NCBI GenBank assembly: GCA_017882375.1
Contig: JADGPP010000020.1
Coordinates: 1-46,475 of the forward strand
Reading direction: 5' to 3'
DNA from: Solirubrobacteraceae bacterium
GTDB taxonomy: Bacteria > Actinomycetota > Thermoleophilia > Solirubrobacterales > Solirubrobacteraceae
Length of the DNA stretch: 46,475 nucleotides
Part shown: positions 16,952 through 23,681 of the stretch, piece after piece
Position numbering within the stretch: position 1 is the first letter of the stretch
Layout: the number at the start of each line of letters is the position of its first letter
Program-made: the position numbers and the translations under genes
Notes under the pieces: generated by a model
Told to the model about the DNA's origin: nothing
Seen by the model: the letters and a program-made list of their open reading frames with translations, nothing else
Databases searched by the model: none

Positions 16952-17430
16952 GCCCTCAGCGTATCGTCTCGGCCCGCTTGCGGCCAGCGCGAGGCGTAGG
17001 CAAATCGGCCTGACCGCGTGCCCTCAACCGATCTACGGGCAGCGCAGCCTGGAGACCGCGTTGGCCGAGGACCGGTCTGCGAAGCTGAAGCGCGTCGACC
17101 GACCGATCGCGACAATACATCGGTCTGCCTGGTCAGGGAATGACAGTTTGCAACAGACCGCGACGGGCAGGAGGCGCGCAGGCGCCATCGAAGAGGCTTC
17201 AGTGGCCGGTGCATACGGGTGGTTTCGTGCGACGGCGCCTCGGGTATCGGTAGGGTTTGGCGACTCGCGGGCGAGCATCTGTTCGGGTGTGTCGTATGGA
17301 CGCGATTACGAATCCTTTACGCCTTCGTGCTTGCCTGCCGATATGAATTGCGGTGGGCGTACCCCGCGTTTGTGGGTTAGCTGCGCCGACCACGACCATG
17401 GGACGACCAAACGATGATCAAGATCGGCGC
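16952..17430. other. 479-base gene-free stretch between secG and the wall hydrolase
   Basis: No convincing coding frame is present. The most regular element is an inverted repeat CGGTCTG (17121-17127) and CAGACCG (17154-17160), with another copy of GGTCTGCG near 17083. The sequence before the hydrolase start contains pieces that recall the c-di-AMP riboswitch, which often controls wall hydrolases in actinobacteria, but the conserved core cannot be assembled. It probably holds the divergent promoters of secG and the hydrolase. Confidence 0.4.
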
Positions 17431-20004
17431 ATGACGCCCCCGGCCGATGCACGGCGCTGGGTGTGGCGCGCGCTCGTGTCAGCGCTCGCCGGAAGCGGTC
17501 TCACCGCGGCCAGCCTTGGCGCGATCCCCGGCGGCGCGCTCGCCGCAGAAGGCACGCCCGGCGAAGGCACGGGCACGACGACCACGCCGGTCGAAGGAAC
17601 CACCGGCACCCCGCCGACGAAGACCGAAACGACAACCACGTCGACGCCTACCGCGAGCACGCCGACGCCGTCGAGCACGCCGACGACGACCCCGGCCCCC
17701 ACTGCGACCACGCCCGCGGGGACGACGTCGGGCGAGACGGAAATCCCAGCCCCGGCCAAGCCCGCCGCGAAAGGACCCTCCGTGGTGCTCCAGCGCAGGC
17801 AGAAGACGACGGCCTCCAAGAACACCAGCAGCACGGCGACGCAGCCGACGCAGCCGACGACCGCACCCGCGCCCGGCCAGACCACGGCTGCCAACAACAA
17901 CGTCGCCGCCGCTCCGCAGGTCGTCGCCGCGCAGGCCGAAGCGCTCGCGGCGGAACTGGCCGGTTCGGCGGCCTCCGCGCAGGCGCTCTCCTTCTATCGC
18001 ATACCGCTGTTCCTGCTGCCGATCTACCAGGCCGCGGCCGTTCAGTACGGCGTGCCCTGGCAGGTCCTCGCGGCGATCAACGAGATCGAGACCAACTACG
18101 GAACCGACCAATCGGTGTCCACGGCCGGCGCGGTCGGCTGGATGCAGTTCATGCCGGCAACATGGATCCAGTACGGCGTCGACGCGCTCAACGCCGGCTA
18201 CGCCGACCCGTACAACCCGGTGGACGCGATCTTCGCGGCCGCCCGCTACCTGCGCGCCGCCGGGGCTGCGACCGATCTGCACGCGGCGATCCTGGCCTAC
18301 AACCACTCCGACGAATACCTCAAGTCGGTGCTGCTGCGCGCGAAGCTAATCTCCAGCTATCCCAAGGGCGTGATCGCAACGCTCACCGGCCTCACCGACG
18401 GCCGCCTGCCGGTGACCGGCAAACAGGTCGCGTGGGGCTCGCTGTCCACCGTCGCCGTCTCCAGCGCCACCGCGAGCGCGGTCAGCGCCTCGGCCAAGCA
18501 CTCTGCCAGCGCGCCCACGACGACCGCCGCCTCGGCGTCCGCGGGCACGCCCGGTGCCGCGATTGCGCCGACACCCGCCGCCGCCGCGACCTCAGGCAAG
18601 TCCGTCAAGGGTGCTCCGCCGCTGCAGCTGGTCGATCTGATGGCCGCCCCGAACGCCAAGGTCGTAGCCGCGCAGGACGGCCGTGTCGTCAAGCTCGGCA
18701 GCTCGCAGAAGCTGGGCAAGTACGTGATCCTGCGTGACGTCTACGGAGACGTCTTCACCTACGCCGGCCTTGGCAGCATCGCCTCGCACTACCCCAAGCC
18801 GAAGGCGCCACGCGCCGCTCCGTCCTCGGCGACGCCGTCGCTGCCGGCGGTCGCCAATGCCGAACCGAAGCCCAAGCTACCCGCCACGGCGGGCGCTCAT
18901 CCGCCGGTGACGCTGAAGGTCAAGAAGCGGGCCGCCAAGGGTGCGCGCAGCGGATCCGCCGCCAGCAGCGTGTCGGTGCCGGGCGCCGGCGCCGAACCGA
19001 CGCCGACCACCGGCAAGGTCCGCTTGTTCGCCCACCCGGGAAACCCCGATGCGCGCGCATCGGCGGCGAGCCGGCGCAAGCGCGCCGCGCGCTCGACGAG
19101 CGCCGGCAAGCTGTTGGCCCTGCGCGCCGGTGCGGTCGTCTCTCAGGGCACCGTGCTCGGCCGAGTGCGCACACCGGCGCATGCGCGCCACGGTCACCTG
19201 CGCTTCGCGATTCGCCCTGGCGGCGACCAGAGCACGATCGATCCGCGTCCGATCCTCCAGAACTGGGCTCAGCTCGGGGCGGCGCTGCACCCGCAGGGGG
19301 TCACGGGCGACACGAACCTGCTCGGCGCGACCGCCAGCGGCGTGTTCCTGATGTCCAAGGACGAACTCGAGCGGACGGTGCTCTCCGACCCGGGAATCGA
19401 CATCTACGCCTGCGGCAGGCAGGACATCGCCTCCGGGACGATCGACAAGCGCGTGCTCGCGGTGCTCGCGTTCCTCTCGCGCATCGGGCTGAAGCCGACC
19501 GTGACCGCGTTGCGCTGCGGCCACAGCGAGATGACGGTGTCCGGCCTTGTCTCCGAGCACTACACCGGAGACGCCGTGGACATATCGGCGATCAACGCAA
19601 CGCCGATCGCCGATCACCAGGGCGCCGGCACGATCACCGATCTGACGATCCGCGCGCTGCTGACGCTCCAAGGCGAATTCGTCCCGCACCAGATCATCAG
19701 CCTGATGCAGTACCCCGGCGCCCCGAACACGCTGGCGATGGCCGAACACTGGAACCACATCCACGTCGGCTTTCGTCCGGTGGCCGCCGATCTCGCGCTG
19801 ACACCCGCGACAGCCGCCAAGGCCGCGCACTCGGCGGGAGCGGGCAAGGCCGCCCCGGCGCCGGTCGTCGTGCCCAGCGACCTGAGCAGCACACAGTGGA
19901 ATCAGCTGGTCACGCGCATCGGCGCGCTGCCCGCGCCGAAGGTCGCCGCAAAGCCCAGCTCCGCGGCGATCAAGGACCCCAAGCAGACCAAGCCGAAGGG
20001 CTGA
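17431..20004 (+). CDS. Secreted composite cell-wall hydrolase: MltB-like transglycosylase, degenerate M23 and M15-like parts
   Basis: The ATG at 17431 gives 857 residues beginning with a twin-Arg-like basic start and a signal peptide (ALVSALAGSGLTAASLGAIP ... ALAA). A Thr/Pro-rich linker runs to about 160. A lytic-transglycosylase domain (about 190-325) has AINEIETNYG with likely catalytic Glu220 and GAVGWMQFMPATW. An M23/LytM-like fold follows (KVVAAQDGRVV, KYVILRDVYGDVFTYAGL), interrupted by about 120 low-complexity residues, then resuming with GAVVSQGTVLGRVR. Its zinc-binding His residues are lost: HxGxD reads LQLVD and HLH reads HLR. The end carries an M15-like region with EHYTGDAVDIS and HWNHIHVGF, which retains a His-Asp-HxH ligand set. 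It probably cuts glycan strands and perhaps peptides during growth. Confidence 0.82.
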   Translation: MTPPADARRWVWRALVSALAGSGLTAASLGAIPGGALAAEGTPGEGTGTTTTPVEGTTGTPPTKTETTTTSTPTASTPTPSSTPTTTPAPTATTPAGTTSGETEIPAPAKPAAKGPSVVLQRRQKTTASKNTSSTATQPTQPTTAPAPGQTTAANNNVAAAPQVVAAQAEALAAELAGSAASAQALSFYRIPLFLLPIYQAAAVQYGVPWQVLAAINEIETNYGTDQSVSTAGAVGWMQFMPATWIQYGVDALNAGYADPYNPVDAIFAAARYLRAAGAATDLHAAILAYNHSDEYLKSVLLRAKLISSYPKGVIATLTGLTDGRLPVTGKQVAWGSLSTVAVSSATASAVSASAKHSASAPTTTAASASAGTPGAAIAPTPAAAATSGKSVKGAPPLQLVDLMAAPNAKVVAAQDGRVVKLGSSQKLGKYVILRDVYGDVFTYAGLGSIASHYPKPKAPRAAPSSATPSLPAVANAEPKPKLPATAGAHPPVTLKVKKRAAKGARSGSAASSVSVPGAGAEPTPTTGKVRLFAHPGNPDARASAASRRKRAARSTSAGKLLALRAGAVVSQGTVLGRVRTPAHARHGHLRFAIRPGGDQSTIDPRPILQNWAQLGAALHPQGVTGDTNLLGATASGVFLMSKDELERTVLSDPGIDIYACGRQDIASGTIDKRVLAVLAFLSRIGLKPTVTALRCGHSEMTVSGLVSEHYTGDAVDISAINATPIADHQGAGTITDLTIRALLTLQGEFVPHQIISLMQYPGAPNTLAMAEHWNHIHVGFRPVAADLALTPATAAKAAHSAGAGKAAPAPVVVPSDLSSTQWNQLVTRIGALPAPKVAAKPSSAAIKDPKQTKPKG

Positions 20005-21047: not shown

Positions 21048-22358
21048 TCAGAGCCCGGCGATCGTGACCACAACGAGGCCGAGCGACAGGGTCGACGTGA
21101 CGGCGACGGTGACGCCTGCCGCGCCGTCGAGCAGGCCGCGGCTGCGCCGCTCGCCCATCACGCTGTGCGAGCGCGCCAGGCGCCAGATGAAGAACAGGTT
21201 GATCGGCAGCAGCAGCCCGTTGACCACCTGCACGCCGACGAGCAGTGAGATCACCGGCACCCTGGGGATCATCGCCACGAAGGCGCTGAGCAGGATCATC
21301 CCGGTGATGATGTTCACGAACACCGGCGCCTCCTCGCGCCGACGCCCGACGCCCTTCTCGTAGCCGAGCGACTCGGAGACCACGTAGGAGGTGGCAATCG
21401 GCAGGATCGCCGCGGCGAGCAGGCTCGCGCCGAGCAGGCCGATGCCGAACAGCGCCTCGGCGTAGCGGCCGGCGAAGGGAGTCAGCGCGCGCGCGGCTTC
21501 GGCGGCGGAGGAGATGTTGTGGATGCCGTGGGTAAAGAGCGTCGCGCCGGTGGCGATGATGATGAACGATGCCACGAGGTTCGCAAACACCGCGCCGGCG
21601 ACCGCCTCGCGTTCCTCGTGCGGAAGCTCGTCCTCGCGCACGCCGCGCTCGACCACGGCCGACTGCAGGTAGAGCTGCATGTAGGGCGTGATGGTCGTGC
21701 CTGCAAGAGCGATCAGCAGCACGATGAATGCTGAGCTCGTGTGCAGGTGGGGCACGGCGATCGCCTTGCCCACGTCGCCCCAATGGGGATGCGCGACGAT
21801 CGCGGCGATCGGATACGCGAAGAAGGGGATCGTGAACCAGATGAAGATGCGCTCGGCCGAGCGGTAGGAGCCCCGCACGATGATCAGCCAGATGCCGACC
21901 GCCGCGATCGGCACGGACAGCTGGACGGGCACGCCGGTCAGTCCCACCGCTGCGCCGATGCCGACGAAGTCCGAGATGCAGATGCCGACGTTGGCGATCA
22001 GGACGGCGCTGGTGGCGAAGACCGACCAGCGGATCCCGTACTCCTCGCGCACGAGCTCGGCCAGGCCCTTGCCCGTGACGACACCCATGCGCGCGGCGAG
22101 CCTCTGCACGATCGCCAGCGAGATCGTGATCAGCACCATCGTCCACAGCAGCGTGTAGCCGTACTTGGCGCCGACCGACGAGTAAGTCGCGATGCCACCG
22201 GCGTCGTTGCCCGCGTTGGCGGCGATCAGGCCCGGGCCGAGCAGGCCGAGAAAGGCGAACAGGCGGACGCGTCGAGAGCTAAGCCGTGCAGGCAGGCGCG
22301 GTCGGCCACGCGTGGCCGACCGGATACGACGCATGACGGGCGGTACTCGGACCGCCAT
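21048..22358 (-). CDS. Nramp-family divalent metal transporter, atypical substrate motifs
   Basis: The 436-residue membrane protein has 11 predicted helices with the Nramp layout (helix 1 GLLGPGLIAANAGNDAGGIA, helix 6 AGTTITPYMQLYLQSAVVER). In classic Mn/Fe transporters helix 1 carries DPGN and helix 6 carries MPH, which bind the ion. Here these read NDAGG (51-55) and TPY (224-226), so the usual soft-metal Met and the His are missing. This suggests another ion, possibly Mg2+ as in the Nramp-related magnesium transporters, or a different mechanism. It is the second gene after the MgtE-N/CBS gene (39-base gap), which supports control by cytosolic Mg2+ or a related ion. An alternative start lies at 22334. 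Confidence 0.85.
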   Translation of the reverse strand: MAVRVPPVMRRIRSATRGRPRLPARLSSRRVRLFAFLGLLGPGLIAANAGNDAGGIATYSSVGAKYGYTLLWTMVLITISLAIVQRLAARMGVVTGKGLAELVREEYGIRWSVFATSAVLIANVGICISDFVGIGAAVGLTGVPVQLSVPIAAVGIWLIIVRGSYRSAERIFIWFTIPFFAYPIAAIVAHPHWGDVGKAIAVPHLHTSSAFIVLLIALAGTTITPYMQLYLQSAVVERGVREDELPHEEREAVAGAVFANLVASFIIIATGATLFTHGIHNISSAAEAARALTPFAGRYAEALFGIGLLGASLLAAAILPIATSYVVSESLGYEKGVGRRREEAPVFVNIITGMILLSAFVAMIPRVPVISLLVGVQVVNGLLLPINLFFIWRLARSHSVMGERRSRGLLDGAAGVTVAVTSTLSLGLVVVTIAGL

Positions 22359-22397
22359 CGAACTGTCCGCCTGGCGTGCTCACGCAGGGCAGTGTAT

Positions 22398-23681
22398 TCA
22401 GTCCTCGCCGAGCAGGCCGAAACGCCGCCGCCAGCCGCGCGGGAGCATCGCCTCGAGCACGTCGTCGACCGTCACCACGCCGACCATCCGCTGACCGTCG
22501 GCGACGGGGATCGAGGTGAGGTTGTAATCGGCCATCTGCCGGGCAACCTCCTCGAATGAGGCGTCAGGCGACAGGCACGGGGTCTCGTGCTTGACGAACG
22601 ATTCCAGCCGCTCTCCGGCGTCGGCGCGGACCAGCGACGTCACCGCGACGCTGCCTTCCAGTGATCCGTCGGCGGAGCTGACGAAAACGGTCGTCAGCAG
22701 CTCGGGCGCGATTGCGCTGCGCCGCACAGCCTCCAGCGCATCGCCCGCTGGCGTGGAGCCGGCCAGCAGGACGAAGTCCGGGCTCATCAGGCCGCCCGCC
22801 TCCGCCGGGTCATAGCCGAGCAGCGCACGCACCTTCACGCGATGGCTGACCGGCAGCGATGAGAGCACCGGCTCGCGCCGGTCCTCGTCGAGCTCGCCGA
22901 CGATGTCGGCGGCGTCGTCGGGCGCCATTCGCGAGAGGATCTCCGCGACCTGCGCGTCGGGGCGGTCCTCGAGAAACTCCTGCTGATGGTGATCGTCGAG
23001 CTCCTCGAAGACGTCGGCCTCGAGCTCGCGATCGTCGTCGCCGACGGCTTGGATGATCTCCTCGCCCTCGCGTCGCGACGCCGCCTCGACCAGATCGGCG
23101 ATCTGCGCGGGATGCAGCTTGGCGAGCTTGGGGTGGGGCACACGCAGACGCACCGTAGGCACGTGCCCGACGAACGGCTCGACGCCCGCCCAGTCGAGAA
23201 ACTCGCCCGTGGCGATGTGCGCTCCCAGGCCCTTCGGCAGCAGGCGGCGAAGACCGCCGCGCGGGCCGGTGTCGACACCCACCACGCGCCACGACCCGGC
23301 GACGAGCGCGAGCTCGATCTCGTTGGCGCGCACCAGGCGTGCGCCCTGCACGTTGATCAGCTGGCGATCGAGCAGGTCTCGCTTGAGCAGCACCTCCTCG
23401 GGACGGCGCTCGAAGCGGCGCAGGTCGAGCTTGGCCTTGCGCAGCACCACGCCATCGGCGCCGATGTCCGACACGCGTTCGACGCCGAGGTAGGACGTCC
23501 GTCCGGCGACGTTGACCAGGAACCCGGTGATCGGTGGGTAGCCGGCGCCGCCGAGGCGGACGATCAGATCCTCGACCTTGCCCAGGCGCTCGCCGTCGGC
23601 GTCTCTGAGCGGGCTGCCCACCACCGCCGACAGGTGCAGGATCGGTGGCGCCTGCGATGCGGGCGCGTTCACGGAGCTCAT
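22398..23681 (-). CDS. Soluble PRC-barrel/MgtE-N/CBS regulatory protein
   Basis: The 427-residue protein has no membrane segment. Residues 12-90 (HLSAVVGSPLRDADGERLGK) and a second copy near 105-180 look like PRC-barrel domains. Residues about 190-300 match the helical superhelix of MgtE N-domains (LHPAQIADLVEAA, RMAPDDAADIVGELDED, LLGYDPAEAGGLMSPDFV). A CBS pair follows (about 290-415), ending VADGQRMVGVVTVDDVLEAM. In MgtE the N and CBS domains sense cytosolic Mg2+ and close the channel, but here the channel domain is absent. Co-transcription with the Nramp-like transporter downstream suggests that the sensor acts on that transporter in trans. Confidence 0.88.
   Translation of the reverse strand: MSSVNAPASQAPPILHLSAVVGSPLRDADGERLGKVEDLIVRLGGAGYPPITGFLVNVAGRTSYLGVERVSDIGADGVVLRKAKLDLRRFERRPEEVLLKRDLLDRQLINVQGARLVRANEIELALVAGSWRVVGVDTGPRGGLRRLLPKGLGAHIATGEFLDWAGVEPFVGHVPTVRLRVPHPKLAKLHPAQIADLVEAASRREGEEIIQAVGDDDRELEADVFEELDDHHQQEFLEDRPDAQVAEILSRMAPDDAADIVGELDEDRREPVLSSLPVSHRVKVRALLGYDPAEAGGLMSPDFVLLAGSTPAGDALEAVRRSAIAPELLTTVFVSSADGSLEGSVAVTSLVRADAGERLESFVKHETPCLSPDASFEEVARQMADYNLTSIPVADGQRMVGVVTVDDVLEAMLPRGWRRRFGLLGED

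Follow-up and report, generated by a model that had tools for sequence, protein, structure and literature searches.

A putative magnesium carrier and its probable soluble MgtE-like sensor, an apparent hybrid of two clades, are encoded together in a Solirubrobacteraceae genome

Two adjacent genes in a Solirubrobacteraceae bacterium probably encode a magnesium carrier and a feedback sensor of the MgtE type that acts on it in trans; we put the probability of this reading at roughly 0.6. The genes lie in the 46,475 nucleotides of contig JADGPP010000020.1 (assembly GCA_017882375.1), called hereafter the window, which is the whole stretch of DNA that was analysed. A preliminary description of the same DNA had proposed a two-protein Mg2+ system of this kind. 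Its substance held in part: the genes form a conserved two-gene unit, the carrier falls in the NRMT clade and the sensor has the magnesium acids of the MgtE N domain. Its novelty did not hold, the arrangement having been published in 2014. Added here to that description is that the pair appears to be of hybrid origin, that the genome has a second such pair, and that it has neither CorA nor an MgtE channel. The features are given in Table 1.

Table 1. Features of the sensor-carrier pair in the window.
Feature	Position	Strand	Evidence
Sensor-like soluble protein, 427 aa	22398..23681	(-)	Pfam; AlphaFold2; Foldseek
PRC barrel 1, residues 14-81	23439..23642	(-)	PF05239 22 bits; modelled beta strands 14-80
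PRC-like barrel 2, residues 96-170	23172..23396	(-)	beta strands 96-169 in model
MgtE_N superhelix, residues 189-292	22806..23117	(-)	PF03448 E 3e-22; site mapping
CBS pair, residues 295-412	22446..22799	(-)	PF00571; site mapping
Basic C-terminal tail LPRGWRRRFGLLGED, where MgtE has an acidic plug helix	22401..22445	(-)	alignments
Intergenic gap, 39 bp, with SD-like AGGCGG before the carrier ATG	22359..22397	(-)	sequence
NRMT-clade Nramp carrier, 436 aa	21048..22358	(-)	PF01566 E 1.7e-86; trees
TM1 ion site D52-A-G-G55 (DxxG)	22194..22205	(-)	alignment
TM6 ion site T221-T-I-T224-P-Y226 (TxxT)	21681..21698	(-)	alignment

Both open reading frames were found at 21048-23681 on the minus strand, with the sensor gene first and the carrier gene 39 bp downstream, as originally described. 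Elsewhere in the window, 17353-20004 encodes an 883-aa protein that combines a transglycosylase SLT domain with one of the M23 peptidase type.

A Pfam search of the sensor reading frame gave matches to PRC (22 bits, just above the cut-off), MgtE_N (E 3e-22) and CBS (1.5e-14), and none to the MgtE channel domain PF01769. In the AlphaFold2 model (pLDDT 90, pTM 0.81, 38 sequences), two PRC-like barrels (residues 14-80 and 96-169) are followed by the MgtE N superhelix at 191-288 and a CBS pair at 295-412, and a short helix closes the C terminus. At roughly the place of the second barrel, PF05239 matched in two relatives (L040, L056). The top Foldseek matches of the model were the cytosolic domains of MgtE, 8gpv and the Mg-bound 2yvy, with an rmsd of 2.1-2.2 over about 237 columns. 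Pfam and AlphaFold2 agree with the earlier view of a soluble PRC/MgtE_N/CBS protein that has no channel.

The sensor residues were then set against the magnesium sites (Maruyama et al. 2018, PMC5882242) and the ATP-site residues (Tomita et al. 2017, PMC5529423) of TtMgtE. Site mapping showed that D223, D255 and D259 in the N domain correspond to TtMgtE E59, D91 and D95, and D407 in the CBS pair to D247. The position of D226 is taken by Asn, and that of D250 by Glu in the sensor and by Gly or Lys in three orthologues. In the alignment the plug residues E258 and D259 are replaced by basic ones, and the ATP-site residues Y170, R187, D188 and F227 by T, T, S and L. The magnesium-site acids that are kept were invariant across the sensor orthologues, and so was the tail WRRRFGLLG. 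Judged by these residues, the sensor retains most of the N-domain magnesium acids of MgtE, and neither its plug acids nor its ATP-site residues. Kept N-domain and CBS contacts together with a missing plug fit a sensor without a channel of its own, and a sensing role of the soluble partner is likely. Given Asn at Mg5 (D226), the variable D250 position and the lack of plug acids and ATP-site residues, its response to Mg may differ from that of MgtE. The basic tail is no proof of docking on the carrier, because Micrococcales forms carry a similar LPxxWR, so that sensors with no linked Nramp have such a tail too.

For the carrier, the closest solved relative was EleNRMT (7qia; 361 bits, E 5e-107), followed by DraNramp with 95 bits. 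An in-register alignment placed D, G, T and T at the DraNramp positions D56, N59, A227 and M230, that is, DxxG/TxxT versus the DxxN/AxxM of DraNramp. The claim that the NDAGG and TPY motifs are unlike those of Mn/Fe transporters was thereby borne out. The site was invariant in the window and 13 orthologues, and fits the NRMT signature, DxxG-TxxA/T, given by Ramanadane et al. (PMC8806188). Three proton-pathway positions of DraNramp were compared, and H232, D131 and E134 are Y, C and D in the carrier. In a bootstrapped tree of 37 sequences, the carrier and its orthologues had as sister group a TPY/SPY NRMT clade from Actinomycetota (98/91), and this joint clade, with L149 and L165, was sister to the EleNRMT clade (94/84). 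A long, 100-starred branch set the carrier apart from DPGN Nramps in the trees. A canonical Mn/Fe Nramp (MntH) identity was rejected on the motifs (NDAGG for DPGN, TPY for MPH), on the scores (361 versus 95 bits) and on the trees. The identity of the carrier as an NRMT is well supported by these comparisons.

MgtE_N and Nramp matches were joined by position in 149 genomes of the window's phylum. An MgtE_N gene lay within 4 kb of 33 of the 108 Nramp genes, where we estimate that fewer than one adjacency would occur by chance if a 3-Mb genome has roughly one gene of this kind. The MgtE_N gene came first in 29 of these cases and the Nramp gene in three, and in one the genes were on opposite strands. 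Ion sites of 32 linked carriers were DxxG/TxxA or DxxG/TxxT in 30 cases and GxxG/TxxA in two, and the nine canonical DxxN/AxxM carriers of the phylum set all lacked a linked MgtE_N gene. An NRMT-like site was also found in 17 of 48 unlinked Nramp genes chosen for comparison; linkage therefore nearly requires such a site, which by itself does not suffice. Among the best 80 sensor relatives from named genomes, 59 had an Nramp gene close by, and these spanned Actinomycetota, Chloroflexota, Bacillota, Nitrospirota, Vulcanimicrobiota, Myxococcota, Acidobacteriota and others. The preliminary description had suggested a survey of co-occurrence and named missing linkage in other genomes as a refutation; the linkage proved conserved, in the phylum, among the best 80 relatives and in 13 of 13 orthologues (see below). 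The linkage of the sensor with NRMT-type carriers is real, widespread and selective. Fusion of sensor and carrier in one protein was seen in none of the sampled pairs, and a natural fusion was rejected.

The window genome contains a second pair, on contig C144 (L063:3660-6820), whose sensor is 51% identical to that of the window. Its carrier, of 550 aa with a C-terminal extension, belongs to a separate Nramp-related class with the motifs GDNDAGG/GTTVAPWQ, found also in Mycobacterium and Streptomyces. The sensor tree put the protein of the window in a clade of which the 26 other members are partners of a C144-type carrier (96 and 99 starred, SH-aLRT). Forcing it to group with the sensors of its carrier's own sister clade was rejected (AU p 0.004, for a group named post hoc from the tree). 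Over 87 pairs, sensor and carrier distances correlated with r 0.73 (species phylogeny uncorrected), and the window was an extreme outlier, with the lowest per-pair tree correlation of the 87 (-0.68). A matching sensor was present upstream in 13 of 13 further orthologues of the carrier, at gaps of 38-118 bp. These come from four genera of the same family, including the window's own, with carriers at least 66% and sensors 58-88% identical, and within the genus dN/dS was about 0.16 and 0.20 for the two genes, which indicates purifying selection on both. In one orthologue (L212) the sensor match is split over two frames, possibly through a frameshift or a misreading in this copy. Two other genomes of the same family (L221, L222) have a sister-clade carrier with a distant sensor (32%). 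By their places in the trees the genes of the window come from two clades and form a hybrid pair, and the simplest reading would be one exchange of the sensor or the carrier gene in an ancestor of the lineage.

Of the 51 relatives scanned, 11 have an M-box ahead of the sensor gene (L154, L160, L161, L169, L170, L172, L181 (twice), L182, L190, L192 and L196), of which L172, with the M-box ahead of the operon, belongs to the sister clade of the window carrier. The two M-boxes of Pelosinus (L181:3278-3767) stand in tandem upstream of a sensor-NRMT operon. No Mn riboswitch was found in the 51 linked or related loci. Neither an M-box nor any other Rfam element was found in the window up to E 1, and a riboswitch there was rejected.

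The window genome (95.9% complete) has no CorA, no PF01769 match and hence no MgtE channel, and no Mg P-type ATPase above the cut-off. Five Nramps are present: two canonical DPGN/MPH proteins (L071, L072), the window carrier, the carrier of the C144 pair, and an unlinked NRMT-like protein on C2. Since the other importers looked for (CorA, MgtE channel, Mg P-type ATPase) are missing, the sensor-carrier pairs may be what this genome chiefly relies on for Mg2+ import. As a general replacement of CorA the pair was rejected phylum-wide, CorA being present in 26 of 32 pair-bearing genomes, with no anti-correlation (p 0.64). A weaker pattern was seen: the pair occurred in 6 of 11 genomes with neither CorA nor MgtE versus 26 of 138 others (p 0.013), and in the window's class CorA was missing in 3 of 3 pair carriers versus 1 of 11 others (p 0.011), both comparisons being small, post hoc and uncorrected for relatedness. 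A negative association with PF01769 in the phylum sample (p 2e-4) is muddied, because pore-dead forms match this domain too.

These forms are sensor relatives of about 600-670 aa, found in Coriobacteriia-type and other actinobacterial genomes and often adjoining an NRMT gene. Their C-terminal domain matched PF01769 in several cases (L039 1e-5, G118 3e-13, G148 4e-13). The GGN..Q motif of TM2 and the pore Asp of TM5 (TtMgtE D432) were missing in all nine long forms aligned, a comparison that rests on three of six reference rows (L037, L021, L036), the other three being in a wrong frame or devoid of the domain. The model of a Collinsella long form (pLDDT 77, the membrane part weaker) has five long helices, and matched full-length MgtE 5x9h over 366 residues (Z 26.7, rmsd 11). 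The long forms are thus candidates for a pore-dead MgtE acting as a carrier subunit. Proteins with PRC-MgtE_N-CBS and an MgtE-like membrane domain were Nramp-linked at L039, L042-L045, L047-L049, L051-L055, L148, L150 and L162, and had no linked Nramp at L020, L028, L030 and L035. At EleNRMT-type loci, the soluble sensor form is nested in the long-form clade of the tree, which suggests that the membrane part was lost there. Carriers 88-95% identical to EleNRMT are encoded at L057, L058 and L059, each with a PRC/MgtE_N/CBS gene immediately upstream.

Family members without Nramp neighbours occur beside DUF1003 genes in Micrococcales-type genomes, and also in Ktedonobacter and Clostridium. In L175, L194 and L197 (also L177 and L179), an Nramp-free PRC/MgtE_N/CBS gene is followed by one for a DUF1003 membrane protein and frequently by one for an Mrp-like ATPase. 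A single genus (G023, G104, G123) has a CorA gene some 2-3 kb from such loci.

Unlike CorA and MgtE, NRMT carriers have no cytosolic gate built in. We propose that the carrier would pass Mg2+ in a largely hydrated form, and probably Mn2+ as well, with no coupling to protons, a step well supported by homology. The soluble partner would be the cytosolic half of MgtE, as its fold and retained residues suggest, probably dimerising through the CBS domains and closing once cytosolic Mg2+ fills the sites that lie between the N domain and CBS. The Mg-bound sensor might then dock on the cytosolic face of the carrier, perhaps with its PRC barrels and its basic tail (WRRR) as contacts, and lower import when Mg2+ is sufficient; the sensor would in that case gate the carrier directly. 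In the window lineage, the operon would join an NRMT to a sensor of a clade normally found with another Nramp-related carrier. Relatives with the full-length MgtE layout, devoid of the GGN motif and the pore Asp, point to a regulatory origin of the partner and favour a feedback sensor. More tentatively, and at slightly less than even odds, regulator and carrier may be exchangeable parts, the MgtE cytosolic apparatus being a portable magnesium-sensing subunit: in some actinobacterial lineages the MgtE channel would have lost its pore motifs and turned into a membrane-anchored NRMT partner, in others the membrane part would have been lost, and in the window lineage a sensor would have been re-paired across carrier classes and kept.

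A different view of the pair is that the carrier functions in effect as an importer of manganese, with a partner that senses Mn2+ or divalent ions in general. The NrmT of Acidobacterium capsulatum, which lies beside an MgtE-like gene, fully rescued Mn transport and rescued Mg only at low millimolar Mg, and Shin et al. (2014, PMC4072509) concluded that it mainly moves Mn. EleNRMT itself also carries Mn2+ (PMC8806188), and L165, a carrier from an acidobacterium, falls immediately outside the clade of the window carrier. The window genome, however, already has its two canonical Nramps while CorA and the MgtE channel are absent, the M-box of L172 stands ahead of a sister-clade operon, and the 51 loci were devoid of Mn riboswitches, so that we hold this view to be unlikely.

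The partner could also be a metal chaperone, a buffer, an assembly factor or a regulator of some target other than the carrier, and not a gate. Shin et al. proposed either feedback regulation or chaperoning for the MgtE-like neighbour, and reported that NrmT carriers are functional without it; co-expression of the A. capsulatum MgtE-like gene, the sole such test, did not improve Mg rescue (PMC4072509), although rescue was scored there under limiting Mg, a condition that would hide a brake. The DUF1003 neighbourhoods, which contain no Nramp, point the same way. Against such roles stand the overwhelming linkage to NRMT-type carriers, the correlation of the protein trees (r 0.73, uncorrected for species phylogeny) and MgtE-derived domains whose retained magnesium acids suggest sensing, and we regard them as improbable, to about the same degree as the manganese view. 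That the genes adjoin by chance or through misassembly, the proteins not cooperating, would agree with the discordant phylogenies, in which the window ranks lowest of the 87 pairs; it is rejected as extremely improbable, the same hybrid pair being adjacent in all 13 further orthologues of four genera, under purifying selection on both genes.

If the feedback-sensor reading is true, a separate MgtE-derived sensor would explain how NRMT carriers avoid magnesium overload, and the gate of a channel would be seen working on an unrelated carrier fold. The question is directly testable, because EleNRMT has been purified and solved and its close homologues lie next to a sensor gene. The re-paired operon would be a natural test of the specificity of sensor-carrier recognition.

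The arrangement has been known since Shin et al. (2014, PMC4072509), who found a gene for a homologue of the MgtE cytoplasmic domain next to most NrmT genes. No later literature on the MgtE-like partner was found, in a search that may not have covered subscription journals, and the partner gene goes unmentioned in those passages of the 2022 EleNRMT structure paper (PMC8806188) that were searched. New beyond Shin et al. are the hybrid nature of the pair, the lack of CorA and MgtE channels in its genome, the pore-dead MgtE relatives and the residue pattern of the sensor.

The pairs of Shin et al. (Clostridium acetobutylicum Ca_c0685; Acidobacterium capsulatum Acp2976-Acp2977) resemble that of the window in having a soluble homologue of the MgtE cytosolic domain upstream of an Nramp-related carrier, and in the function proposed. 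They differ in that the window has no M-box and its sensor comes from a clade accompanying another carrier class; the sensor also has PRC domains, of which the text of Shin et al. (PMC4072509) makes no mention. EleNRMT (7qia; PMC8806188) is about 46% identical to the window carrier and shares the DxxG/Txx(A/T) site, with TxxA and W where the window has TxxT and Y, and its close homologues at L057-L059 are, like the window carrier, downstream of a PRC/MgtE_N/CBS gene. The cytosolic N and CBS domains of MgtE (2yvy, 2zy9, 8gpv) share with the window sensor the superhelix, the CBS pair and the magnesium acids of the N domain, at an rmsd of about 2.1. Unlike MgtE, the sensor has no pore and no acidic plug helix, its ATP-site residues are not conserved, and it carries two additional PRC barrels.
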